From: a bacterium 1XD21-70
GTDB taxonomy: Bacteria > Bacillota > Clostridia > Lachnospirales > Lachnospiraceae
Assembly (NCBI GenBank): GCA_003669055.1
Contig: RAYB01000021.1
Location: 1-64,000 of the forward strand
Reading direction: 5' to 3'
Length of the DNA stretch: 64,000 bases
Part shown: positions 2,153 through 16,491 of the stretch, one piece after another
How positions within the stretch are numbered: position 1 is the first letter of the stretch
How the letters are laid out: each line of letters begins with the position of its first letter
The notes under the pieces: generated by a model
What the model was told of the DNA's origin: nothing
Databases searched by the model: none
Seen by the model: the letters and a program-made list of their open reading frames with translations, nothing else
Made by a program: the position numbers and the translations under genes

Positions 2153-2320
2153 AGTTCAAAAAAAAATTCCTACTATATTTTACCTATAATTTAAAATCTT
2201 TTCATTTTTCTCTTAATTTTCGCTATATCAATCAGCTTTATTCTATGTATGCAAAAAGCTGGACAATAAAAGGCGTTCCCTCTCATCATCCGGCTCTTCG
2301 CACGTACTTTTATGTCCTTT

Positions 2321-2451
2321 TCACAGGATTCCCAGTGCAATCCCGCCCCAATAAATCACCCCCAGCACCCAACTGCTCAAAACCCCATACAAAATCACAG
2401 GCCCCGCAATCGTAAAGATCTTACACCCGATCCCAAACACCTGTCCCTCCG
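2321..2451 (-). pseudogene. Duplicated 3' end of spoVAC (island boundary, attR-like)
   Basis: The minus strand encodes the last 43 codons of SpoVAC in frame (from EGQVFGIG to a TGA at 2,321) with no 5' part. Positions 2,348-2,451 match 16,063-16,166 of the intact spoVAC at 102 of 104 bases; homology stops abruptly at 2,451/2,452. Beyond 2,348 the two copies diverge but both stay open: this copy ends IYWGGIALGIL and the intact gene ends IYWIGGVMGII. I infer that this is the displaced original tail of spoVAC, left when an element integrated into the gene end. Confidence 0.85.
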
Positions 2452-3064: not shown

Positions 3065-4090
3065 TTAATCCTTTTCAAAAATGCCCAGCCGTCTCACAAT
3101 CTCCTCCGGTTCTGGTAGCATTTCTTTCATATTATCCGGCAAAGAACTACAGAGCTGATATGTCGCCACCCCTATGGGAACATTCGACCTTTTTAGTGCG
3201 TACTCCACATAGGTTCTGTCTTTGCTCTTACAAATAATAATCCCGATAGATGAATTCTCATCAGGTAGCTTTACCTGTTCATCTAAAGCAGTCAAATAAA
3301 GTTGCATCTTTCCCGCATACTCCGCCTCAAACTCCCCTATTTTCAGTTCAATCGCCACCAAACACCTTAATCTTCGATGAAATAGAAGCAAATCGATATA
3401 TAAGTCCCGACTCCCAACAACTAAGTGATATTGATTTCCTAAAAAAGAAAAGTCTCCTCCCATCTCAATCAAAAAAGCTCTGATATGGTTTACCAACTGC
3501 ACTTCCAGTTCATGCTCGGTATATTCAGGAGACAGTTCTGCAAAATCAAACGTATATTCGTCCTTCACAGCCAATTTTGCCTGTATTCGCCGTTCTTCTG
3601 GAAGCGTCAAGTCAAAATTTGTCTGATTCAGAAGATATTTTTCATACGTCTTAGCCTCAATAAAATTAATCAGAACTCGCTTTGTCCAGCCAAATCTCTT
3701 TGTCATCTGAATATAAAACTCTCTCTGTAAATCATCTTTACATTTTTCCATAATAGCGATATTGTTGCTCCAGCTAATTTCTCGCACCAGCGGCGCGAGT
3801 TTTTCAGAATTGCAATATGTCAGATAAAAATTACGCATTCTCCACAGATTCGCCGCTGAATATCCCTGCGTTCCTGGGAACTCCTTTTGCAATTCTTTCG
3901 CCAATATCTGTACAATGGATTTTCCCCATCCCTTTTCTCTTTGCTGACGATATATTTCTTCACCGATTTCCCAGTAAAGATTAATAGTTTCTGTATTTAT
4001 CATTTTAATTGCCTGAAATTGCTTCCTTTGAATCAATTCCTTAATTTCATTTACAAAAGGCTGATATATAATAATATCCATATCCATCAT
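3065..4090 (-). CDS. YhcG/DUF1016-type PD-(D/E)XK nuclease
   Basis: A 341-residue protein with the two-part layout of the YhcG (DUF1016) family. The N-terminal helical domain contains NLYWEIGEEIYRQQREKGWG and LWRMRNFY, and the C-terminal PD-(D/E)XK fold contains DLYIDLLLFHRR (metal-binding Asp) followed by AIELKIGEF (the E-x-K pair). The family is common in defence islands and near restriction genes; its exact role is not established. Full length, no frameshift. GAAAGG lies only a few bases before the ATG-ATG at 4,090/4,087, so the true start could be either or the Met at 4,081. It follows the helicase gene in the same direction but is separated by a 27-base palindrome, so it may be a separate unit. 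Confidence 0.8.
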   Translation of the reverse strand: MMDMDIIIYQPFVNEIKELIQRKQFQAIKMINTETINLYWEIGEEIYRQQREKGWGKSIVQILAKELQKEFPGTQGYSAANLWRMRNFYLTYCNSEKLAPLVREISWSNNIAIMEKCKDDLQREFYIQMTKRFGWTKRVLINFIEAKTYEKYLLNQTNFDLTLPEERRIQAKLAVKDEYTFDFAELSPEYTEHELEVQLVNHIRAFLIEMGGDFSFLGNQYHLVVGSRDLYIDLLLFHRRLRCLVAIELKIGEFEAEYAGKMQLYLTALDEQVKLPDENSSIGIIICKSKDRTYVEYALKRSNVPIGVATYQLCSSLPDNMKEMLPEPEEIVRRLGIFEKD

Positions 4091-4196: not shown

Positions 4197-7100
4197 TCAA
4201 TCACTAAAATATCTTTTCCATCCATTACGAATCAATTCATCAGCTTTCGGTAAAGCATATTTCAAAAGTTTATCCGCAAGAGTGATTGTCCCTGCTGGCA
4301 GCAAAATACTGCTTTCACACCACATCGCCGGATATGCCGCAATCTTGCATCTTTTATTTTGCATGGCAACAAAATGATGTATCCCATCCCCAACTATTTT
4401 ATATTCCGCTCCCAAAGCATTTAATGGTTCCAGCAATTTTTCCTGTTTATCATAAGACAATTCTGACGGAAGACTGGAATTTTCGCACCATTCCAACAGC
4501 TCTAGCGCCGCAAAACGGTCTAACAAGCCATGAACCCGTTGATTCCAGTAATGCATCAGACATTCATGGCAGGCACTGTCACATCCGGCATGGCAGCTTA
4601 CCAAAATCTTTTTTGTTTCCTCCATCAACTCCTCTGTTCTTTCCGCTAATGCAGAACAATACCCTGCTCCACTGGAAAGACTGTCAAACAAAAAGACATC
4701 TACATATGCTTTAATACCATCTTCGGAATATCGCAGCCGATATCCGCTTTTGATTTCATTGAATTCAATATCCAGCAAGCGTCCACCTGCCAAAGTCATA
4801 GCCTCAGCTAAAGTCTGGCCGGCTCTTCGTATCCAAAGCCCTCCAGGATTTACATTTATTTGTTTCGCATCAAGGGAAATCTCATACACCACCATGTCTG
4901 TCCTAAACTGGTTGCCCAGATAGGTGTTTACAACCCTTCCTGCCCCATGATGACAGCTATAATTTGTATACGGATGACGATACGGTTTATATATCTTCCT
5001 AAGAATCCCTTCGTCATCCCCGGGAACTGCAGCCCCACAATCTTTACAGACCATAAAACCTGTAGATTTCGGCCCTTTATTCAAGATAATTAACGGATCA
5101 TCGGATCTCTTTGAATAGTGCAGGTTTCTAAAACCGATTACCGTCTCCATCTCACTTTCCTTGGGTGTAATAGAGTAACAAGGTTCCTCCGCATAAGTCA
5201 TTTCTGCTTCAGCCCCTACTTCCTTGGCACTTGTTCCATTGACAGGCGCAAATCCCCATGGTTTAAGCATATTTTGACTCCGAATAGTTGATTTTCCACA
5301 AAATGGGCATTGGTCTTCATGCTTCAGTCCCATCCAATTGCAGGCAGAGTCTCCACAATAGTATAGATCTTTAAAATATTCTTTGCTTTCAAAAAAAGGC
5401 AGGGCAGGGTGTTCCTGCTCATCCGCACGAAATTTTGAATGAAAGCTGTAAATACCGCCTGATTTATAAGTAATCTTATTAATCACCACCAGCCGCCCAG
5501 GTGCGTATTCACTAATCCCTATGTCCAAAGCGCGTTCCGGCTTTTCTTTAATGGATGATCCCTTTTCATTTTCCACATGAAAACCCACAACATCTTTAGG
5601 AAAAGAATATGTTGGAAAAATCCCTCTTTCCAAAAAAACGTCCAGCACACTCTTTTCCTGGTGGTTATCACCATCCTGATACTCCTCTGGAAATTCTTCC
5701 GTGCTTTTTCTCAGTTCCTCCAGTTGAGTCAAAATTTCTTTTTTATATTCCGCTATATCGAAATCTATCCCTTCTGGAATGAGCGTTTCCAACTCAAAAT
5801 CCGATTCTCTTTTCCCACTGATAAACTTTTCAAAATTTTTAAAATCATTCCGGAAAAAATCACCAATCCCAACTTCGTCCGCCCCTGCCTCCATCATGTC
5901 AAAAAACTCTGTAGCACAAATTACATTCATATGTCGATATGCTAATTTTTTATTGTCAACATCAATCCATGGTGTTCTGGGAACGCCGGAAATGATTTTT
6001 TCAGGATTATGAAAGTAATAGCTGTCATGAGGTCTATTGTCTGTATATGTAACGATTGTGGATATTGCTGCGCTTTTCCGGCCTGCGCGCCCGGCGCGCT
6101 GCTGGTAATTTTCCCTCATAGGGGGAATATTTCTCAAGCCAACCGCTGTCAGCGAACCAATATCAATACCTACTTCCATAGTCGTAGTACAGCTCAATAT
6201 ATCTACCGGACGATCATTGTCCACATGGACATTTTGAAACCTCATTTCAAAATCTTCCGTAGTTGACCATGTTTTTTGCCGTTGATCCTTATGGGAAAGC
6301 TGGGCTGTATGTTCCTCTGTATTAATACGCGTCATATATGCCTGCGGATCACCATGCACCGCTCTTAAAACAGGCGCCCGCCAGAATTTGAGCCCATCAA
6401 AATCTTCCTGCGTCATCTTTCTGGGAATCCCTTTCCCACAGTGTACGCATTTTCCCCACAATGTGAAAGGAAACACACCGCTGCATCTGGGGCATTTATA
6501 CCATTCATGATTTTCACCAAAGTGTAACATAATCATATCTGAATTGAGATACATAGAGGATGTATGATTGCCTTTGGCAAGGAACCTGCATAACTGTCCG
6601 ACCACAATTTGAATCTGAGCCTTTGTGAATCCCTGGGCTTCCAACATCTTCCTGATTCTGGGCGGCAATTCGTTTCCATTCCCGATTCCCAGCCTGGGAT
6701 ATGCAGTAATATTTCTTCGCACGTCATCATCAATTTCAGATCCTACCGCATACTGTGAAGTCATGATTTCCATTGCCCATGCGGAGAACAGCACCTTGAA
6801 CTCATCTAATGATATCTCAATTTCTGCTTCCTCCAGCTCCTCTTCGATTTCGTCAAAAGTCTCACCACCAATATTACAAGGTTCTATCCAACATAATCCC
6901 GCATCCGTCAGAGACCGAAAGCTACTACACAACTGTCTCAGCAAATGTTCATAGTACTGACTTGGCTTGTGTTTAAAATGTGTGTCTATGACAATATTAT
7001 ATTTTATCTTGTCCTTCTTTTTTTCATATAATTCCCCCATTTTCTTTAGGTCATCCAACAATTCTGTTTCATTATTTCCATAGAAGAATTGAAGTTTATT

Positions 7101-9473
7101 TTTGTAGGCAACTTTCAGAAAAACCGCATACAAATTATCCAATTTTGGAACTTTATTATTTCGTGCCGCCCAATCCTGGAGTTCCTTTGCTGCAACTGTC
7201 AAGGCTTTTTTCATGACCCATTCATCTGCCGCGCGGGTCAAATCCCTTGCCAGAACAGCCGCACGCTGTCTGCTGTCTGAAAACAGCAAAACCTTTCGTC
7301 CTCCGTTGGCCTCATCCTTATATTGAGAAACAGGCGGCTGTACATAAAATTGCTCTGATACCAGATTGAAAAACGGTTCATTTCCTTTGGTAACAAAATC
7401 GGTTGCCTCAAAGCGCATTTTGTCGCATTTAGGGCAAGTCCCAAAAGTCCATAAATCCGGTCTTCCCTTAATTTCCACATCACAACAGAACGCTACCTGA
7501 ATACAGCTATTCTCCCCATCAGGCTCCCCGGAAAATTTGTCCAGGTATCCTGTCATCGCATTCAGATATGCGGTTTGAATCTTCTTGTTTCTTTTACTTC
7601 TTTTAAAGTCGCTATCCTGAAGAATCGGATAAAAAAGAAGTTCTTTCAAGTTATCCGTAAACTGGATACCCGGCTCATTCCAGACAAAAGGTTTTTCATG
7701 TTCAGATACGTCCATATAGCCGCGCAGAAACAATGCACCGCAAGATCGCTCATTCAGCAGTTCATATATCATGCCTCCACATTTGCAGCGTGTTCCCGGT
7801 TTTCGCAGATAGACACGACCTAATCCAAGCCTTGCATCCTCATAATTTTTTTCTGTGCAGGATGGATTCGAACAGGCATAAATTCCCTGCAATCCCCGAA
7901 ACATCATATGCAGTCTGGCAGGATACAGCACCTTCCCCTCAGTATTTTTTGCAAATGGAGCGATTGCAAGCAATACACTGGTGGCCTTTTCCGCTGCAGA
8001 TGATTCACTTTCTGGGAACGCAATTTTCACTAATTTCTTAAAGCTGACTGCATGCCCCCCGGTTTGTTTTATAATCCGCAACATAGGATTGCACAAACGC
8101 AAACAATCATACAGCCATGTTTCCACATTTCCTTCCTCCTCAGAGCCATTGTATACAGGAAAATCTACCCTCTTGGCAAAATCCATAATTGCCAGATAGC
8201 GCCCATTCCACTCCTGCTGCAATGCATCCAGATCGTAATCTATAAGAACAATCGGATCAAACTCTCTGCCGTTTTCCGGAAGTTTCTCCGCCTTTCCCTT
8301 GATCAATACAAACGTATTTTTATTTTTTTGCTGGGCACTTAAATCATAAGCAAATTGGTATACTTCTTTCTCCTTTTCTTTTCCTGAAGGAACGCTGGCG
8401 CTGGTAAGAATAAACTGTACCTGATTACGGTTAATACACAGCTTATGAAATAATCTGCGAACTAAAAGAGCAACTTCTCCTCCAGATGAACCTCGATACA
8501 TATGGGCCTCATCCATAATGAACAATAACTTATTCTCCGGATCGCTATTAATCCATTCTTTCGTCCTATTCCAAATTTCCTTTTCAATGGGACGCATCAA
8601 CATATATTCCAGCATAGAATAATTTGTAATCAATATGTCAGGACAATACTGATGCATTTCATGTCGGGTTATTAACTCCGCATCCTCCGGGTCTGTCAGG
8701 CAATCCTCCTGTTTTCGCAACCGCTCCACAAACGTTTCCAAATCTTTTTTAGATGGATATTTTCCAAGTTCACGGAGCTTTTTCTTAGTTTCTTCCGGTT
8801 GCTTAAGAATATCTTTCTCCATCGTATTCGCCAAATTCAAGTTCTGATCTCTGTCAGCTCTGCCTGAATATGGTGTACGACCAGTATACATTCCAAATTG
8901 CACTACCCGGCTTCCCGGAGCCAATTCATTGATTAAGCTATGAAAACCGTTTTCACCATTGCCAATCATGCGGCGAAGTCTTCCCAACTGATCAGAAACC
9001 AACGCATTCATTGGATACAGCATGATTGCCCGTACCCCGCGAATCTCCCATGTTCTGGGAGAACGCATTTGCTCCAGAACCAGTTTGCTCACCATCGGCC
9101 ACATAAAACATTCTGTTTTTCCAGAACCGGTACCTGTAGCAATGAAAAGGTCTTGGCCTTGATAAAATGCTTCCAAGGCTTCCATCTGGTGTTTGTATGG
9201 GGTCTTAAACACGCCTAAATCCAACTCTGCCATTTTTAGAAGAATTCTTTTAACATCTGTCTCCAACGCTGCGCCGTTAATTCCCCCTTCCGCTTCCAGA
9301 TAAGCGGGATTAGCCTCTATATAAGGTTCCTGGAAAACCATTCCTGCCTTTTGCAGTTCTTTTTCACACGCAGCACGTAATGCGTCATTTTTGCCAAGAT
9401 ATTCCGTATTGATATAATCCAGCAGCCGGTTTCTGATGGCATCATAAGTGTTTCTTACTCCATACTTATCCAT
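4197..9473 (-). CDS. Giant DUF1998-type SF2 helicase, DruE-like
   Basis: A 1,758-residue superfamily 2 helicase, probably the DNA-translocating core of a phage-defence system. Motifs in order: ATGTGSGKT (112-120), MLYPMNALVSDQ (motif Ia, about 151-162), DEAH (321-324), LTSAS (357-360), a long insertion, TTTMEVGIDIG (about 1,091-1,101) and QRAGRAGR (about 1,123-1,130). The C-terminal part matches DUF1998, with FDSLSSGAGYCS near 1,596 and a CHAGCDSACHECL cysteine cluster near 1,635. At least five further CxxC pairs are spread along the chain, so several zinc knuckles are likely. Length and layout fit Druantia DruE (1,800-2,100 residues) better than DISARM DrmA, which is shorter. It is the last gene of a four-gene operon and overlaps the preceding gene by 8 bases. 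A Druantia link is inference; the partners do not match DruA-D, DruH or a methyltransferase. Confidence 0.85.
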   Translation of the reverse strand: MDKYGVRNTYDAIRNRLLDYINTEYLGKNDALRAACEKELQKAGMVFQEPYIEANPAYLEAEGGINGAALETDVKRILLKMAELDLGVFKTPYKHQMEALEAFYQGQDLFIATGTGSGKTECFMWPMVSKLVLEQMRSPRTWEIRGVRAIMLYPMNALVSDQLGRLRRMIGNGENGFHSLINELAPGSRVVQFGMYTGRTPYSGRADRDQNLNLANTMEKDILKQPEETKKKLRELGKYPSKKDLETFVERLRKQEDCLTDPEDAELITRHEMHQYCPDILITNYSMLEYMLMRPIEKEIWNRTKEWINSDPENKLLFIMDEAHMYRGSSGGEVALLVRRLFHKLCINRNQVQFILTSASVPSGKEKEKEVYQFAYDLSAQQKNKNTFVLIKGKAEKLPENGREFDPIVLIDYDLDALQQEWNGRYLAIMDFAKRVDFPVYNGSEEEGNVETWLYDCLRLCNPMLRIIKQTGGHAVSFKKLVKIAFPESESSAAEKATSVLLAIAPFAKNTEGKVLYPARLHMMFRGLQGIYACSNPSCTEKNYEDARLGLGRVYLRKPGTRCKCGGMIYELLNERSCGALFLRGYMDVSEHEKPFVWNEPGIQFTDNLKELLFYPILQDSDFKRSKRNKKIQTAYLNAMTGYLDKFSGEPDGENSCIQVAFCCDVEIKGRPDLWTFGTCPKCDKMRFEATDFVTKGNEPFFNLVSEQFYVQPPVSQYKDEANGGRKVLLFSDSRQRAAVLARDLTRAADEWVMKKALTVAAKELQDWAARNNKVPKLDNLYAVFLKVAYKNKLQFFYGNNETELLDDLKKMGELYEKKKDKIKYNIVIDTHFKHKPSQYYEHLLRQLCSSFRSLTDAGLCWIEPCNIGGETFDEIEEELEEAEIEISLDEFKVLFSAWAMEIMTSQYAVGSEIDDDVRRNITAYPRLGIGNGNELPPRIRKMLEAQGFTKAQIQIVVGQLCRFLAKGNHTSSMYLNSDMIMLHFGENHEWYKCPRCSGVFPFTLWGKCVHCGKGIPRKMTQEDFDGLKFWRAPVLRAVHGDPQAYMTRINTEEHTAQLSHKDQRQKTWSTTEDFEMRFQNVHVDNDRPVDILSCTTTMEVGIDIGSLTAVGLRNIPPMRENYQQRAGRAGRKSAAISTIVTYTDNRPHDSYYFHNPEKIISGVPRTPWIDVDNKKLAYRHMNVICATEFFDMMEAGADEVGIGDFFRNDFKNFEKFISGKRESDFELETLIPEGIDFDIAEYKKEILTQLEELRKSTEEFPEEYQDGDNHQEKSVLDVFLERGIFPTYSFPKDVVGFHVENEKGSSIKEKPERALDIGISEYAPGRLVVINKITYKSGGIYSFHSKFRADEQEHPALPFFESKEYFKDLYYCGDSACNWMGLKHEDQCPFCGKSTIRSQNMLKPWGFAPVNGTSAKEVGAEAEMTYAEEPCYSITPKESEMETVIGFRNLHYSKRSDDPLIILNKGPKSTGFMVCKDCGAAVPGDDEGILRKIYKPYRHPYTNYSCHHGAGRVVNTYLGNQFRTDMVVYEISLDAKQINVNPGGLWIRRAGQTLAEAMTLAGGRLLDIEFNEIKSGYRLRYSEDGIKAYVDVFLFDSLSSGAGYCSALAERTEELMEETKKILVSCHAGCDSACHECLMHYWNQRVHGLLDRFAALELLEWCENSSLPSELSYDKQEKLLEPLNALGAEYKIVGDGIHHFVAMQNKRCKIAAYPAMWCESSILLPAGTITLADKLLKYALPKADELIRNGWKRYFSD

Positions 9474-10494
9474 GTCCTGTCCTTTCTTCTATCAGTTTTA
9501 TCCCTAATCCACATAAATGCGGCTTTACAAATTCCCACACCAACTCACCCATATCCCATTCCAGTTTATCCATAATGGAATTGTGAGGCCATGCGTATGT
9601 TTCCAACAGAGAGTTTTCCTTTTGCGGCAAATGGATCCTCAATTTCACAAAAACATGATCCACATAGTGATATACCTCTATCGGCACATCATTCCCTGCC
9701 ATATGCCTCATTGCCAACATAAACCGTCTATGTTCACTAACTTTCTGTAAGAACGGATCCACCCGATGTTCATACAAATATTCATCCTGACGCAGAAGAT
9801 AATACTCATACCCGTTTTGACAGATATTACGGCGGGCAAACCATATTCCTTCTACTGGTTTTGGCCGTTCTGACTGCCAACAGGAATGATTATTTTTTGA
9901 CTTCTTATATGCATTAAAGTATTGAACATCCTTATCCATGCCCTCAGTTTTCCACCAAGCGAAGTGTACAAAATCCTTAAACCATCCTGTTACATCCGTA
10001 ACCGGCTCAGGTTTGAATATTATGCTTTCTTGTGTTTTTTGAAGCATTGCTATACCTGAGTAATATGTATCCTGTAAAAGTATCTCCCCTTTTCTGCACT
10101 CCACATTACCTGATAGCGGCATTTGGCTGCTTCCTGCAAGAATCAGGTTTGTCCCAAATCCAACCTGCAGCAAATCCCCATGTCTTATGAGCCTGCCCTG
10201 CAGCACACCTATGGGACTTCCTATCTCTGGTTCCATTTCAAACCATGATCTGGATTCCGGATACCTTTTCAGCATTTCATTAAGAACAGAAGTACATTTA
10301 TCAAAAATATGTCTCCTGCTCACCCCTTGTACAACTCTTTGTATACTGGTGACCGGCCGATCCAATGCAGCAGCTTTTACCCAACTGGCCATTGCTGAAT
10401 ACAAAACTCTGCTGCAATATCGCATTTCTGATTCATTTTCAAACCTATCAATCCCTAAGTCGCTAGCCATAGCATATAGGATTCTGTCTTTCAT
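9466..10494 (-). CDS. Unrecognised 342-residue protein of the DruE-like operon
   Basis: I do not recognise this family. The N-terminal third is helical (DRILYAMASDLGIDRFENE...), the middle is beta-rich with many glycines (LLQVGFGTNLILAGSSQMPLSG), and the C-terminal third is mixed, ending near LWEFVKPHLCGLG-type hydrophobic sequence. No nuclease, helicase, methylase, signal peptide or membrane segment is seen. The stop overlaps the helicase start by 8 bases and the start lies 10 bases after the 964-residue gene, so it is made together with both. By position it could be an adaptor for the helicase. A conserved defence-subunit role is inference only. Confidence 0.75.
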   Translation of the reverse strand: MKDRILYAMASDLGIDRFENESEMRYCSRVLYSAMASWVKAAALDRPVTSIQRVVQGVSRRHIFDKCTSVLNEMLKRYPESRSWFEMEPEIGSPIGVLQGRLIRHGDLLQVGFGTNLILAGSSQMPLSGNVECRKGEILLQDTYYSGIAMLQKTQESIIFKPEPVTDVTGWFKDFVHFAWWKTEGMDKDVQYFNAYKKSKNNHSCWQSERPKPVEGIWFARRNICQNGYEYYLLRQDEYLYEHRVDPFLQKVSEHRRFMLAMRHMAGNDVPIEVYHYVDHVFVKLRIHLPQKENSLLETYAWPHNSIMDKLEWDMGELVWEFVKPHLCGLGIKLIEERTGHG

Positions 10495-10504
10495 CCTCTG
10501 TACC

Positions 10505-13399
10505 TCACAGATATTTTTTAATATATCTGTTGGACTTTACATCCAATCCAACTACTGAAAGCTTTTCTAAGAAATCCTCCTTTTTCCCAAAAGATTTCGC
10601 ACTCAGCAAAACCTGAATAAATATCATTTCATCCGTTTCCATTGTTCCATCTGTCACAGCAAGATATTTTGCATAATTTAAAATTGCCATATTATCAATC
10701 AATCCATAGAACTGTTTTAACAGCTTACGTTTTTTTCGAAAAACTTCTATGTCGTATTCTAAAGCAAAATCAACTGAAGAATGAAAAGCGTTTAAGGTAT
10801 CCATCCCAAAATCTGTAATTCCCAAATCTCCGTCAATAAACATAGTTTGATTCCATACATGGCTTGAAATCATTTCTATATTAACACCATTCAACGGGAA
10901 AATAAGAATTGCCTTATTGCCCCACTCTTCTGAACGCTGCCTTATCTCATGAAAAGCGCTCAGGCTAAATCCCTCAAAAATCCCATTGACCATAAATACT
11001 CTATTAACGTCTTTTATCTCCTGCCCAATAAAATCACAGATTTCTTTGCAGCGTGGTTCTCCTATTGGCAATGAAATCATACAAGTCCCATCACATCCAA
11101 ACATAGGGGAAATACAATCAGCTATCCTTTCTGCGTGTTCACCACATACAATGGGCATGTTATTACAAATCGCAAATACAATTATCTGCGCCATCTGAAG
11201 TGCAGTTCTTTCATCATAACCAGACAAAATTAAATTCTCTGTCAGCTCCTCTTCAAAAGAATCCATATCTGTTATTTCAGTACCAAGATGATACTTCTTT
11301 TTTCTATAAGTAATCGATGTGGAACTTCCTTCTGACATTGCACTCTTACTTTTCGTATCGATTGGCATAGCAAATGCCATCTCAGATATAAAATCCGATG
11401 CGTCTTTTCTTGCCAGAGCAATTCGGGCTGCAATTTTTTCTTGTACATCCTGAGCCAGTTTTTCCTGTTTTGAAGTCTCTGCCTGGAGTTCTTTCAGTTC
11501 CTCCTGCACTTTGGTGTGCTGCTCCTTATATGTAATATAATTATCTCTTTCCTCCCTTGCGGCTCTCTGCACTTTTTCCAATTCCTCCTGCGCCATGAGA
11601 AGCTTTTCAGAATTCTCCTTCTGCCAGTCTTCCAAAAGCAATTCTTTACATCTCCTCACAAGTTCCGCATTTCTCTCCACCGCAGCTCCTAGCGTTTCCA
11701 TATCAATATCATTTTCCGACAAATAGGAATCGGCCTGTTTAATAAAGGCAGATAGGTATTCTTCGGCTTCCTTCTCCGTACATTCATACGCATCAATAAT
11801 TTCCTGATACATCGTCTTTTCTGGTAGTTCTTTCAAGAAAGCCTGACAATGCTGGGTTTCTTTTATACTAAGACCACCTTGTCGTAATCTGGCACTTGTA
11901 GCACGCCTTACCACAATCTCCTTAACAACTTCCAGTGGGCTCTTTACTTGCAAAATATTTTGAGGAATACCCATATTAAGGTATCTGTAAATCTTCTTTC
12001 CGGCAATTTCTATTACATCGCCGCTATCAATAGTATACTGAGGCAATATGTACACATTTTTCTTCAACCGGACATACCCATTGCAAAATTCCAGTTCCCT
12101 GGTTCCACACAACAAACCATTCACCTGATTTTCTGTCATCTGGTACACAAAGAGCACTTTGCTTCCTGATATGCAGGAGAGATTCTTGTCAATAAGACGC
12201 TCTAAAAGTTCCTCATAACTATGACATTCCGTAAATTCCACGACCTCTATGTACTTCAAGTTACTATTATACTGCATCTTATTGACATAGTCTCTATTAG
12301 AATCCTTATAATTGGGAATGACGCTCCAATTCCATATCCCAACAAATTTCTCTGTATCAGGCCCATCAAGCAATGGCAATTTGTCGCGATTACCGAAATA
12401 GGGCGGTTCTTCCTCGATTTTAATAAACCGGTTGATCCTTCTATCCTCTATGTCTGCTAACCGCCTGCATTTTTTTCCATTATAATCAGTAAATATCTGA
12501 CAAATAGATGTGTGTTGATAATCTTCTCTTTGCTCTTCTGTCTCCTCATCACAGTACTTTGATAGTTTGCGGTATTTATCCAACTCCGCCTGAAGCCGTT
12601 CCTCCTTTTCTCTCTCTTGTTCAATCTGCTTTTTTATTAACATTACTTCACTTTCCAATTCACTGTTTCTCTCAGATAATTTGGACAATGATGTCTGAGT
12701 TTTGGAATAAAGCTCTTTTTCCGTTTCTGCTTCCTGCTCCAACTTTACTTTTTGAGCCGTCAAATTCTTTACTTTTTCTTTTAGTTCTGTAATCTCCCCC
12801 CTTTTTACTCCCTCCTCAGTTTCACTTTTCAGGGTTTCAATTGAAATTTCTTCTCTTTTTTTCTTTTCATTCAAAAGCTGTAACGCCGCTTCCATCAAAG
12901 CAACATATTCTTTGGAGCAAGGTTCTCCTGTCACTTTAAAAAAGAGACCTACATTTTCCCGAAACACACTTTGAAGTATGGATTCAAGCAAAGCTATGGA
13001 TCTTGATTCCCCCTTGTCTTCCTGCATTTTTTGATATTTCTCTATTTCCAATCTCCAGACATCAAGCTGCTTAATGATAAATGATGTGATAAAATCTTTC
13101 GTAATATTTTTTCTCACAAGCATTACCGTCATATCATCCGATAAAGAAGCAGCTCTGCTTCCCGGTCGAATTTTATTGAATTCCTGAGGGTGCCTTTGAA
13201 AATACACACGAATTTTTCTTGGTGTAATTTTCATACAAATATATTCTATTTCCTCTTCTGAAAGATCATTCACTAAAATTCTTCCCGTTTTCCTCAAGTT
13301 CTGCTGCAAAAAATTTATATTCTCTGCATTATCATTGCTTCCTGTTTTCGCTGCTTCATTCTCCTTCAAATGATTAATACTTTCCTCTGATTGTTTCAT
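10505..13399 (-). CDS. Large coiled-coil protein of the DruE-like operon
   Basis: A 964-residue protein with no family I can name. Residues about 1-170 form a helical N-terminal domain. Residues 173-290 are a strong heptad coiled coil rich in E, K and Q. Residues 300-560 form a globular middle with GIWNWSVIP and YIEVVEFTECHSYEELLERLI. Residues 586-666 are a second coiled coil. The C-terminal 260 residues look alpha/beta, with PIVCGEHAERIADC near 753 where an AAA protein would have its P-loop, and VFMVNGIFEGFS plus AILIFPLNG as possible beta strands. The overall plan (globular, coil, globular, coil, globular) is SMC-like, but no intact Walker A is present. GGGAGG precedes the ATG, which overlaps the upstream stop as ATGA. 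In the operon it may be a scaffold or sensor for the helicase. Confidence 0.8.
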   Translation of the reverse strand: MKQSEESINHLKENEAAKTGSNDNAENINFLQQNLRKTGRILVNDLSEEEIEYICMKITPRKIRVYFQRHPQEFNKIRPGSRAASLSDDMTVMLVRKNITKDFITSFIIKQLDVWRLEIEKYQKMQEDKGESRSIALLESILQSVFRENVGLFFKVTGEPCSKEYVALMEAALQLLNEKKKREEISIETLKSETEEGVKRGEITELKEKVKNLTAQKVKLEQEAETEKELYSKTQTSLSKLSERNSELESEVMLIKKQIEQEREKEERLQAELDKYRKLSKYCDEETEEQREDYQHTSICQIFTDYNGKKCRRLADIEDRRINRFIKIEEEPPYFGNRDKLPLLDGPDTEKFVGIWNWSVIPNYKDSNRDYVNKMQYNSNLKYIEVVEFTECHSYEELLERLIDKNLSCISGSKVLFVYQMTENQVNGLLCGTRELEFCNGYVRLKKNVYILPQYTIDSGDVIEIAGKKIYRYLNMGIPQNILQVKSPLEVVKEIVVRRATSARLRQGGLSIKETQHCQAFLKELPEKTMYQEIIDAYECTEKEAEEYLSAFIKQADSYLSENDIDMETLGAAVERNAELVRRCKELLLEDWQKENSEKLLMAQEELEKVQRAAREERDNYITYKEQHTKVQEELKELQAETSKQEKLAQDVQEKIAARIALARKDASDFISEMAFAMPIDTKSKSAMSEGSSTSITYRKKKYHLGTEITDMDSFEEELTENLILSGYDERTALQMAQIIVFAICNNMPIVCGEHAERIADCISPMFGCDGTCMISLPIGEPRCKEICDFIGQEIKDVNRVFMVNGIFEGFSLSAFHEIRQRSEEWGNKAILIFPLNGVNIEMISSHVWNQTMFIDGDLGITDFGMDTLNAFHSSVDFALEYDIEVFRKKRKLLKQFYGLIDNMAILNYAKYLAVTDGTMETDEMIFIQVLLSAKSFGKKEDFLEKLSVVGLDVKSNRYIKKYL

Positions 13400-14994
13400 A
13401 TATGATATTCCTCCCCACTACAGCATTCATATAATATTTTCAAAATGCCGACCGGTATTTTTCCATTAACAATCATCCTCTTTACTTCATTAAATATCCT
13501 GTTATTCCCCATCCTTTTCCATTTAAGGAACATATTTTCTACCCAATATGGGACGGGAACTAACTCTCCCTGACAACACTTTCTTATTTTATCTACTGTC
13601 AATGTTTCCTTTAAGCTTTTTGCTTTATTTACAGTTTTTGCCCGATAATGAAGAAAAACTCCACCATCCTTCACAAACATAATTTCTTCTGAATTGTATT
13701 GGGCAGAAACAGCTACTCTCTGCTCACGAACCGATATATGCTGAAATATCTTATCCCTGGTTCCAATATAAATTTCCGTTTTTGCATTTGAGTTTAGAAA
13801 AAAGGATTCTGAAATCACATCTTTCGTGACATCCTTCCATTCCACTAAATCTCCGTTTTCCTTCTCAATACAAAAATTATACTCATAATCCGGATGAATA
13901 ATCTTTTTGGATTGAAACGCTATTTCTCTTCCTGCATATTTTCTATCTACCGAAAGAAATACTTCCTGGGAATGTATAGTAAAGGAAACTGTATGGCAAC
14001 CGCCTTCAGCTTTATTGACAGGCATCGGAAAAACTTCATGACCGTCATATCTATATACATTTGGTTCGTCATTTCCACTGGATACTGAACAATACACCTT
14101 TTCATTGCTTTTGGCAGGTATCACCACTCCCTGTTCTACCATGGGTGGCCACAGCGGAATCAATTCCGGTGATGTCTGCAGCAGCCATATGCCAAACTGT
14201 CTTTGCAGATAGTTTTTTACATATTGGTATCTACTTGCGTTTTCTACCGAAACATTAATGGTAATTAAATATACATTGTAGACATTCTCACTCAATATTA
14301 TCGTTCCAAGCTTTTGTGAAGAAATCTCCTGGGGCGGATCAAATTTTCTGGCAATCACATAATATTGTTTATCAGATGAAATATTACCGCCTTTCCTGAT
14401 CTTTTTTCCTCCTGTTTCTCCATATGTAAAAATTGCCCCTCCATAGCTAAATCCATCTGCATAATCAGACCATTTTTTGTGAAGTTCTAATGCTCCTTCT
14501 GGTTCAATCGTCATTCCAAAATTTTTTCCCGGATACGGGATAAAATTAATCGGCACCAAAGTAACATCATCTTCCAGAAAATTGACTGCATTCACAGAAA
14601 CTTTTCTATAATGCTCCGCCCCTGTAATACAAACCTTGATATCCCATGATGCAGCCATGGCAAGTAACTGCTCACCAACCGCAGGAAATCCTATCATCAA
14701 AGAAAACTGATTAACAGCTCTGATAGACAGATAAACAGGCAAACCAACACGCTCATACAAATTCAATCCTGAGCGCCCGTCCACTCGTTTATCACATTCC
14801 GGAGTCTGTTCGGTCTTGTTGTAGTGCGAAAACTTGTCCGGCTGTGAGCCTCCTCTGGAACTCCAAAATACAGGCTCACCACATTCAGGACAAAAGAACC
14901 TGTCCTTTTTCCGGGGAATATACTTATTATAAAAGATATCTGCACTAACCTCTTTCTCTAACCCCATCTCATATCTATCAATAGCGTATTTCAT
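13396..14994 (-). CDS. First protein of the DruE-like operon, CoiA-like zinc N-terminus
   Basis: A 532-residue protein. The first 70 residues hold FFCPECGEPVFWSS (Cys35, Cys38), FSHYNK (His57) and Cys67, which resembles the N-terminal zinc knuckle of competence protein CoiA and related phage or defence proteins (CPxC ... HFxH). No CoiA nuclease motif follows. The rest is beta-rich with many short strands and has no match I can name. AGGGG lies 5 bases before the ATG and a good promoter lies about 75 bases upstream, so this gene opens the operon of four. Its stop overlaps the next start by 4 bases (ATGA). A DNA- or RNA-binding role for the zinc knuckle is inference. Confidence 0.75.
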   Translation of the reverse strand: MKYAIDRYEMGLEKEVSADIFYNKYIPRKKDRFFCPECGEPVFWSSRGGSQPDKFSHYNKTEQTPECDKRVDGRSGLNLYERVGLPVYLSIRAVNQFSLMIGFPAVGEQLLAMAASWDIKVCITGAEHYRKVSVNAVNFLEDDVTLVPINFIPYPGKNFGMTIEPEGALELHKKWSDYADGFSYGGAIFTYGETGGKKIRKGGNISSDKQYYVIARKFDPPQEISSQKLGTIILSENVYNVYLITINVSVENASRYQYVKNYLQRQFGIWLLQTSPELIPLWPPMVEQGVVIPAKSNEKVYCSVSSGNDEPNVYRYDGHEVFPMPVNKAEGGCHTVSFTIHSQEVFLSVDRKYAGREIAFQSKKIIHPDYEYNFCIEKENGDLVEWKDVTKDVISESFFLNSNAKTEIYIGTRDKIFQHISVREQRVAVSAQYNSEEIMFVKDGGVFLHYRAKTVNKAKSLKETLTVDKIRKCCQGELVPVPYWVENMFLKWKRMGNNRIFNEVKRMIVNGKIPVGILKILYECCSGEEYHI

Positions 14995-15067: not shown

Positions 15068-15096
15068 ATTATACACATAATATTCTGCCTTTACAA
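15068..15096 (-). promoter_or_regulatory. Sigma-A promoter of the DruE-like operon
   Basis: On the minus strand TTGTAA (15,091-15,096), a 17-base spacer and TATAAT (15,068-15,073) lie about 73 bases before the first ATG of the operon at 14,994. No operator-like palindrome was seen beside it. Confidence 0.7.
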
Positions 15097-15143: not shown

Positions 15144-15832
15144 TTATGTATTCCATACTACCCCTATATTCCCCACACAATCCATACTTACATACTTCAA
15201 GTATCTTATAGCAATTTCCCTTGTTAGATCCTTACAGTATAAACCCTCTCTATCTCCAATCGCTTTCCTTATTTCCTCTAAAACTTTCTTGTCTAACTCT
15301 TCAACTGCTACTTTATGTGTCGAATATCCCTTTCCTTTTTATTCTTTCCACACATATAATATAAATATGTCCGCCTCCAGTTGATACCAATTTCTCCACC
15401 AACAAACTGCCACACTCCTTACACACTGCGATTCCAACCAAATCACTTATTTCCATACGTTTTCCAACCACTCTAGTATTTAGCGCCAACATTCGTCTTG
15501 CTATTTTTAATTTTTCCTTAGCAATAACACCGTACCTTTCATTTCTATAAATTGGATCGGACAATATCTTTCTTATTTCTGCCAAAGACCACCCTACGAT
15601 CTTATCTTTCTTATATTTGCCTGGATACTCAATTCCTTGAGATTCTATAACATTCTTGATCTGCCTCAGACTCATTCCATCAAGGCATAAACTTAAACAT
15701 TAATTTCACTGATTCCATTTTTTCACGATCCATTACCACTACATCATACTTTTCATGTCTCATAAATCCATATGGGATTTTTTCTGTAATTTTTCCGTTC
15801 ATATAAACTCTCTCCATTCGTAAAATATTCAT
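15144..15832 (-). pseudogene. Large serine recombinase remnant (recombinase domain and zinc ribbon)
   Basis: Three frames on the minus strand join into one decayed gene. From 15,832 the frame reads NGKITEKIPYGFMRHEKYDVVVMD and stops after LMFKFMP; a shift near 15,685 continues with CLDGMSLRQIKNVIES, then GWSLAEIRKILSDPIYRNERYG, the signature of the Recombinase domain, and a CKECG zinc-ribbon half. A second shift near 15,330 continues with VAVEELDKKVLEEIRKAI to a TAA at 15,144. The catalytic N-terminal resolvase domain is missing; nothing upstream to 16,000 restores it. It sits at the spoVAC-proximal end of the island, where an integrase gene normally lies, so it may be what is left of the enzyme that inserted the element. 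It cannot be active as it stands. Confidence 0.75.
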
Positions 15833-16035
15833 ACTGCCAGTTTAAATATTGTCTAAAACCGTCTAAACTCATTTATCTATTAAACGAAGTACAAAGCAAA
15901 CACTATATAGGTAATCCTTCTGTATCCTATAAAGCATCAAAAAAGCAGGCCAATGAACTATTTCATCCATCACCCTGCCCATAAAACTTAGTTAAAAATC
16001 ATCCCCTAATTTTCTTAATTGCTTATCTCCACTTC

Positions 16036-16491
16036 TCAAATAATTCCCATCACTCCCCCAATCCAATAAATCACCCCCAGCACCCAACTGCTCAAAACCC
16101 CATACAAAATCACCGGCCCCGCAATCGTAAAGATCTTACACCCGATTCCAAACACCTGTCCCTCCGCCTTATACTCAACCGCCGGCGCCACCACGGAATT
16201 GGCAAACCCGGTAATCGGCACCAGGGCGCCGGCGCCGCCCCACTTGACAATCTTCGGATAGATATTCATCCCTGTCAGCACGACACTCAAAAGAATCAAT
16301 TCCAGCTGCGTCCATGTCATTGCCGTCTCCTTTTCCATCCCCCAGAGGTGTATCATACTCATCGTAGAAATCTGACCCAAAAGGCAGATCGTCCCGCCCG
16401 TCACAAATGCCCGCAGCATATCTGCCCCCAACGGATGCGTGGGTGTAACCTGCTTTACATATTTATCATATTCCTGCTTATTCAATTCCAT
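16036..16491 (-). CDS. spoVAC: Stage V sporulation protein AC, with island-derived C-terminus
   Basis: SpoVAC is an inner-membrane subunit of the channel that moves dipicolinic acid into the forespore and out at germination. The 151-residue product has the family sequence VTPTHPLGADMLRAFVTGG, GAGALVPITGFANSVVAPAVEYKAEGQV and hydrophobic segments throughout. I chose the ATG at 16,491 (GGAGAG 9 bases before) over an upstream in-frame Met. The last 104 bases or so repeat at 2,348-2,451, and the final codons (IYWIGGVMGII) differ from that copy (IYWGGIALGIL), so this C-terminus was probably supplied by the inserted island. The frame stays full length, so function may be kept. spoVAD and spoVAE, which normally follow at once, are missing here. 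Confidence 0.92.
   Translation of the reverse strand: MELNKQEYDKYVKQVTPTHPLGADMLRAFVTGGTICLLGQISTMSMIHLWGMEKETAMTWTQLELILLSVVLTGMNIYPKIVKWGGAGALVPITGFANSVVAPAVEYKAEGQVFGIGCKIFTIAGPVILYGVLSSWVLGVIYWIGGVMGII
16063..16166. repeat. Direct repeat in spoVAC 3' end (attL-like)
   Basis: This segment is 102 of 104 bases identical to 2,348-2,451 in the same orientation; the two mismatches are internal single changes. The right edge (16,166/16,167) is where the intact spoVAC continues upstream and the other copy departs. Direct repeats of a gene's 3' end on both sides of a foreign AT-rich segment are the usual mark of site-specific integration. Confidence 0.85.

Follow-up and report, generated by a model that had tools for sequence, protein, structure and literature searches.

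Druantia type I is described as a system of five genes in two papers (PMC7251935, PMC13316683), and the Vsr domain of its DruE helicase is reported to be inactivated by Bell et al. (PMC12458937). With regard to type III, PMC13192584 takes DruH to be the likely sensor and DruE to be a helicase-nuclease engaging intermediates that contain single-stranded DNA, and a mycobacterial system blocks phage DNA circularisation and replication according to PMC13316683. Here we analyse a four-gene operon (positions 4,197 to 14,994, minus strand) in a 64,000-nucleotide stretch of DNA, hereafter the window, which covers positions 1 to 64,000 of contig RAYB01000021.1 (assembly GCA_003669055.1) from the Lachnospiraceae bacterium 1XD21-70. 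The operon is almost certainly a Druantia type I without DruA, in the order druB-druC-druD-druE, and we consider a type I anti-phage operon of a DruE lineage that lacks DruA to be, with good confidence, the best overall explanation of our results. Judged by sequence comparison, what is known here is the kind of system, Druantia type I, and what is new is the DruA-less composition, which was not described in the literature searched, the original Druantia paper, most subscription papers and supplementary files being outside the scope of that search. A preliminary description of the same DNA had presented the operon as a candidate new anti-phage system or Druantia subtype, built on a DruE-like helicase with partners unlike DruABCD. 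This proposal stands in part. The partners were recognised, so that a match of all four proteins to a described system was largely found (DruB at family level only), and what is left of the novelty is the DruA-less composition of the whole DruE clade together with a restriction-modification (R-M) gene pair that frequently precedes druB.

The operon is transcribed from the gene for the protein of 532 amino acids (aa) through those for 964 and 342 aa to that for 1758 aa, and comprises the following genes:

13396 to 14994, minus strand: druB-like gene, 532 aa, with a predicted N-terminal C35/C38/H57/C67 zinc site and then beta-rich domains
10505 to 13399, minus strand: druC-like gene, 964 aa, with coiled coils and a C-terminal alpha/beta domain, possibly AAA+-like and without Walker A
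9466 to 10494, minus strand: druD-like gene, 342 aa, matching the PADLOC model DruD1
4197 to 9473, minus strand: druE-like gene, 1758 aa, a YprA-family superfamily 2 (SF2) helicase matching the PADLOC model DruE1

All four open reading frames (ORFs) are full length and were found exactly where, and as long as, they had first been placed, overlapping or nearly touching: the first and second genes share 4 nucleotides (nt), the second and third are separated by 10 nt, and the third and fourth share 8 nt.

In common with Druantia type I, the operon has homologues of DruC, DruD and DruE, preceded by a probable DruB homologue, in the same co-directional order, with a full-length DruE of the DruE1 family. 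It differs in that both operon and genome are without DruA (PF14236/DUF4338), in a DruC that is more than 300 residues longer (964 aa vs. 625 aa in Pseudomonas putida), and in a DruE that belongs to a clade without adjacent DruA, many members of which carry an R-M pair in the upstream slot. The PADLOC model DruE1 matched the 1758-aa protein with 1859.6 bits over residues 1-1750, nearly three times the score of any other DruE model (633.8 bits for DruE2, 588 for DruE4 and 520.5 for DruE3 at best), and the DruE-like character first ascribed to this helicase is thereby borne out. Druantia types II and IV also have a DruE-family helicase, and the cytosine methylase partner of type II, DruM, recalls the methylase upstream of some relatives of our operon; however, with the DruE2 and DruE4 models the window helicase reaches about one third of its DruE1 score, and the four window proteins match no DruF, DruG, DruL or DruM model (E ≤ 1 for the partners). 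Type III (DruH-DruE) likewise uses a YprA-family helicase as its motor, but no DruH match was obtained among the window partners, the DruE3 score is low, and a Pfam scan of the 1758-aa DruE found no PLD domain. ARMADA, DISARM and Dpd share the YprA helicase core, and the window helicase matches DrmA and DpdJ weakly, whereas the four genes include no PglX-like methylase, BrxHII-like helicase, DrmB/C or deazapurine genes.

The DEAD, Helicase_C and MrfA Zn-binding (MZB) domains of the helicase all scored above the Pfam cut-offs, and a search of PDB sequences with DruE retrieved YprA (6znp) and two giant helicases (9tu7 and 9wae). The main elements of the protein are:

9111 to 9140, minus strand: Walker A of DruE, residues 112-121, from the alignment
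8502 to 8513, minus strand: DEAH box of DruE, residues 321-324, from the alignment
4557 to 4781, minus strand: MZB domain of DruE, residues 1565-1639, Pfam PF09369, E 1.5e-9

Walker A (TGTGSGKTE), the DEAH box and motif VI are intact in all 46 rows of the DruE alignment, from which the very distant DruE of locus L070 was excluded. The same 46 rows show no recognisable D-ExK in the DruE tail, and this agrees with the inactivated Vsr domain that PMC12458937 reports for type I DruE.

With regard to the three partners, the statement that they do not resemble DruABCD did not hold. PADLOC identified the 342-aa protein as DruD1 (E 1e-16), and the DruD1 model matched all 38 family members in a family scan (best 1.9e-32); this conserved family has no relatives among PDB sequences. 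The 964-aa protein was identified as DruC1 over residues 532-785 (E 7.4e-6), a model matched by 11 of 33 family members at E ≤ 0.001. For the 532-aa protein the match to DruB1 (E 0.0038, residues 28-81) is too weak to count alone, and at least 10 of 35 family members match that model at E ≤ 0.001 (best 1.2e-9), the DruB of the window not being among them. Family hidden Markov models (HMMs), built without the DruA-bearing rows and searched against 922 ORFs of other loci, recovered the P. putida plasmid proteins DruB (6.3e-9), DruC (1.8e-10) and DruD (4.5e-6). The recovered proteins stand between the annotated DruA and the helicase, in the order A-B-C-D-E, and the P. putida operon resembles that of the window in gene order and sizes. 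Because the family HMMs recover B, C and D in this operon, two of the partners are identified as homologues of DruC and DruD and the third as a probable homologue of DruB, at family level. The DruB match to P. putida falls mostly in the zinc region (residues 16-103 of 558), and the proposed DruB homology leans mainly on this region and on gene position.

The remark in the preliminary description that no DUF4338 protein is present proved correct, as PF14236 (DruA, DUF4338) had no match in the whole genome assembly of the window. Since this model also gave 0 matches in 14 control genomes, its absence was trusted only after a positive control with plasmid records that carry related helicases. PF14236 matched in 7 of 8 such records, each time at most 6 kb from the helicase; the eighth, from Escherichia coli (L070), has no DruA and a very distant DruE. 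The eight neighbourhoods examined, mostly the best ones, belong to 40 listed plasmid records (169 with a match). Of the 41 distinct genomes whose DruE belongs to the window's clade, 40 are without DruA, and the 41st (G021) has it on another contig. Among the 38 genomes of relatives (39 loci; L011 was outside this search) G021 gave the only PF14236 match, and G049, G061 and G490, which carry a DruE of the same clade, gave none; G061 (locus L113) and G001 (locus L001) have identical sequence, and the clade genomes are therefore counted as 41 and not 42. The DruA of G021 lies near the edge of a fragment whose 2,143 examined bases hold no B, C or D match. This fragment has no sequence in common with the druE contig, which ends before druB, and adjacency of the two in the cell is possible.

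In the DruE tree, the 39 DruA-less rows make up one side of a branch with a support of 100 in the SH-like approximate likelihood ratio test (SH-aLRT). The tree was built with a quick method from 48 rows, with a midpoint root and with those 35 of the 39 loci whose DruE exceeds 1400 aa; long branches among the plasmid rows and where these join the DruA-less side drew a warning from the program. G465, a genome of the window's phylum whose DruE groups with that of P. putida, has DruA. Because a genome of the same phylum with a canonical-clade DruE has DruA, its presence tracks the DruE clade and not the host phylum. The DruA-less composition is thus common to the whole DruE clade and not a local damage. 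This clade is a broad one, with best-segment identities of DruE as low as 38%. The system itself is sparse, with matches at E ≤ 1e-60 in 3 of 398 genomes of the phylum, including the window's own and the DruA-bearing G465. In G465 (L110, 10025-17917), DruA does not head the operon but follows druE at a distance of ~1.4 kb, on the opposite strand.

Scanning genome contigs yielded 39 loci with relatives of the operon, the families represented including Lachnospiraceae, Clostridiaceae, Paenibacillaceae, Selenomonadaceae, Oscillospiraceae and Anaerovoracaceae. Of the 39, 35 have all four genes, and the other four (L003, L022, L027, L030) are cut by contig ends and cannot be judged. The neighbourhood survey that had been suggested for the operon thus shows the four genes recurring together in many bacteria; a helicase without the other three, named beforehand as evidence against the proposal, was not seen in the 39 loci wherever the contig was long enough. 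The 35 copies include imperfect ones, with druD split in L009 and L024, druB split in L013 and a short druE in L036, and the druE of L032 continues past the contig end. Between any two of the proteins B, C, D and E, pairwise distances correlate with r of 0.74-0.96, and none of 2000 permutations reached any of the six values (30 loci, with L004, L009, L013, L024, L032 and L036 excluded as split, truncated or near-identical, together with four loci without DruB). The correlated distances indicate that the four genes are co-inherited. In just one of the 35 four-gene loci (L037, 5754-9545), four ORFs stand between druD and druE, which lie 4.3 kb apart. The contig of L004 is filed under Prevotella and its DruE is almost identical to that of Clostridium aerotolerans (L038), probably through a binning error or a very recent transfer.

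DruB and DruC have the following predicted parts:

14794 to 14892, minus strand: predicted zinc-binding site of DruB, residues 35-67, CoiA_N-like and below the Pfam cut-off
10508 to 11332, minus strand: possible degenerate AAA+-like domain of DruC, about residues 690-964, limits read from the model (AlphaFold 2, Foldseek, alignment)

C35, C38, H57 and C67 of DruB are invariant in the 35 aligned rows, and Pfam CoiA_N matched with E 0.0023 (17.8 bits vs. a cut-off of 26.3). Compared with PDB sequences, the DruB family gave zinc ribbons and one Csm2, all at E > 0.09. The AlphaFold 2 (AF2) model of DruB has a mean predicted local distance difference test score (pLDDT) of 83.6; a fold assignment from its 16 Foldseek matches at E ≤ 0.001 was rejected as uninformative, as all are Ig/FN3-type or a similar beta-sandwich with template modelling (TM) scores of at most ~0.3. 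The AF2 model of DruC (mean pLDDT 77.1, predicted TM score 0.37) shows long coiled coils and a C-terminal alpha/beta domain, and the PDB sequence relatives of the family are mostly coiled coils. The top Foldseek matches of DruC were TRIP13 (1.4e-3), PCH-2, spastin and Vps4 (E 1.4e-3 to 1.1e-2, probability 0.87-0.97). As the aligned range was not displayed, the assignment of this possible AAA+ resemblance to the C-terminal domain of the model is our reading. The Walker A pattern GxxxxGK[ST] is absent from all 38 DruC rows. The coiled-coil models LmuB and JetC also match DruC proteins (PADLOC and family scan), and the DruG2 model is matched by 2 of the 33 DruC relatives (best E 7.4e-4). None of the four operon proteins matched a methyltransferase model in the profile scans, as had been noted at the outset, and none had a nuclease match.

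Taken together, we think that the operon quite probably defends against phages. It is possible, at slightly less than even chances, that it does so as a non-cleaving motor complex rather than a nuclease. DruB, with its zinc site and beta domains, and DruD would then be the recognition and adaptor parts, and DruC a coiled-coil scaffold with an inactive AAA+-like end. B, C and D might jointly load DruE onto phage replication intermediates, where its unwinding or translocation would block phage DNA replication. If DNA is cut at all, another enzyme would do it, either a nuclease of the host or, in the many relatives that have one next to the operon, the type II endonuclease. Given that DUF4338 is described as a GNAT-like domain in DndF (PMC10853773), DruA may serve as an accessory that modifies and not as the nuclease; we offer this analogy as a lead only. 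The natural DruA-less clade separates a four-gene core from an accessory part and offers a smaller system to reconstitute, and the motif-less AAA+-like end of DruC, together with the lack of a recognisable nuclease, raises the question of what destroys or blocks the phage DNA.

Several points weigh against this interpretation. The anti-phage role of the four-gene composition is inferred from sequence, and the mechanism of type III is not directly transferable since its DruE has an active PLD nuclease. The matches of the window's DruB and DruC to the PADLOC models are weak or partial, and the DruB homology could reflect a shared zinc finger. The Ig/FN3-type Foldseek matches of DruB reach E 1.6e-5 at the low TM scores given above, and those of DruC all lie above E 0.001. 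Of the 7 DruA-bearing plasmid loci, B, C and D were found by the family HMMs only in L065; in two archaeal ones (L066 and L072) just B was found, and in the other four none of the three. Because L065 alone has all three, the DruA-bearing control set is broader than type I.

The alternative that survives best concerns the R-M genes. It takes the operon as a hybrid of restriction and Druantia, in which BCDE acts with the upstream cytosine methylase and endonuclease, methylation marks self, and the window copy uses another methylase of its genome; we regard this as rather unlikely. Among the 34 informative loci (druB present and more than 600 nt before it), 14 have, immediately ahead of druB and in the same orientation, a C5-cytosine methylase, a type II endonuclease or both (L005, L006, L009-L013, L016, L017, L019, L029, L036, L037, L039). 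L005 has the methylase only, L017 the endonuclease only, at a contig end, and the methylase of L037 is cut by a contig end. The slot endonuclease belongs to the EcoO109I family in nine loci and to the Eco47II family in four. The near-copies L004 and L038 keep a methylase remnant at the slot, with stops in L038, and the hybrid is further favoured by L031, where a C5-methylase follows druE, and by L038, where an NgoPII-family endonuclease does. The recognition sites of EcoO109I, Eco47II and NgoPII are GG(N)CC-like, and nothing here rests on them. In the window's genome, PF00145 is matched at 10 places, fragments included. In addition, a review (PMC12904381) states that type I Druantia is evaded by a phage protein which promotes site-specific methylation; beyond this statement on evasion, the literature searched contained no mechanism paper on Druantia type I.

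However, the R-M pair is missing before druB in 20 of the 34 loci. Two of these keep the remnants, and the remaining 18 have neither slot R-M genes nor remnants; before the druB of the window no R-M remnant was found by tblastn at E 0.01. A C5-methylase as a general requirement was rejected, as PF00145 is unmatched in 11 of 43 genome entries, or in 10 of 42 when G001 and G061 count as one, the DruA-bearing G465 being among these. Those without a match include G001, G008 and G014 (loci L001, L008, L015) with whole BCDE operons, and the assemblies may be incomplete. On the DruE tree the R-M label (12 rows) needs 4 changes vs. 10.9 in shuffles, and the occupancy of the slot before druB suggests a favoured, exchangeable position. 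Building on this, the DruA-less Druantia I could form a separate subtype with an exchangeable upstream slot, often filled by a type II R-M pair whose endonuclease family varies. BCDE would then be a second line attacking DNA flagged by the restriction enzyme or by a missing methyl mark, and window-like copies would have emptied the slot and use other methylases or cues; we hold this extended proposal to be doubtful. With the R-M pair present in 14 relatives, a link to DNA methylation can be tested directly.

It is very unlikely that the operon is instead a damaged five-gene Druantia I that recently lost DruA, for example with the recombinase remnant, and whose remaining genes are a non-functional relic. 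A decayed recombinase fragment does sit at the expected place of druA, and PF14236 is unmatched in the window's genome. Nonetheless, all four ORFs are full length and the relatives are also without DruA, with a match in 1 of 38 genomes, on a contig without B, C and D, and in 0 of 3 further clade genomes. The breadth of the DruA-less clade argues in the same direction, and we also list on this side that some relatives are themselves broken (the split druB or druD of L013, L009 and L024 and the short druE of L036). That the operon is a new system with only its helicase related to Druantia I, the B, C and D matches arising from zinc-finger and coiled-coil similarity, would fit the weak, partial DruB and DruC matches and the LmuB and JetC hits but is most improbable given the DruD1 matches in 38 of 38 members, the P. 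putida-like gene order and sizes, and the margin of the DruE1 score.

Upstream of the operon and around it, the following features were recorded:

15068 to 15096, minus strand: possible sigma-70 promoter, TTGTAA-17-TATAAT, 10/12 matches, about 70 nt upstream of the druB-like gene
15313 to 15675, minus strand: decayed serine-recombinase fragment at the island edge, Pfam Recombinase E 0.0027 and Zn_ribbon_recom E 0.0041, both below cut-off
2317 to 2451, minus strand: left copy of a 135-nt direct repeat, partial spoVAC 3' end
16032 to 16166, minus strand: right copy of the 135-nt direct repeat, 3' end of spoVAC, attachment-site-like

The good promoter that had been claimed for the operon exists as a site (15096-15068). 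Its role is only plausible, because such sites are no commoner in the region than in shuffles (40 found vs. 40.6 +/- 6.8 expected). No DruA homologue was seen beside the operon, and the recombinase fragment was all that was recognised between druB and spoVAC. The copies of the direct repeat that flanks the operon lie 13,715 bp apart from start to start, with 89% identity over 135 nt and 102/104 in the core. Together with the below-cut-off recombinase fragment, they support the location of the operon in a 13.7-kb island bounded by the spoVAC 3'-end repeat, and the earlier placement in a mobile island is upheld.

Partial spoVAC 3' ends were seen in the window, L099, L105, L107 and L108. Such ends occur in the same-genus genomes G045, G048, G050, G053 and G055, in G048, G050 and G055 also as DNA, and the spoVAC 3' end looks like an integration site. 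In L099, defence-like genes (OLD-like/UvrD, Schlafen-like, YhcG and caspase-like) stand between copies of the spoVAC end. The other defence genes said to adjoin the operon are indeed there, namely a Septu pair, PtuA and PtuB (187-2145), outside the 13.7-kb repeat-bounded unit, and a YhcG/PDC-S02 gene of the PD-(D/E)xK type (3065-4090) inside it. The YhcG/PDC-S02 gene was rejected as a fifth component, having no relative in the 39 loci, of which 31 show at least 1.5 kb behind druE and 8 do not. The spoVAD of the window's genome lies on another contig (L098, contig C51, 632-15843), behind Wadjet JetABCD, FRG-domain and AIPR genes, and the other end of the island array may lie there.

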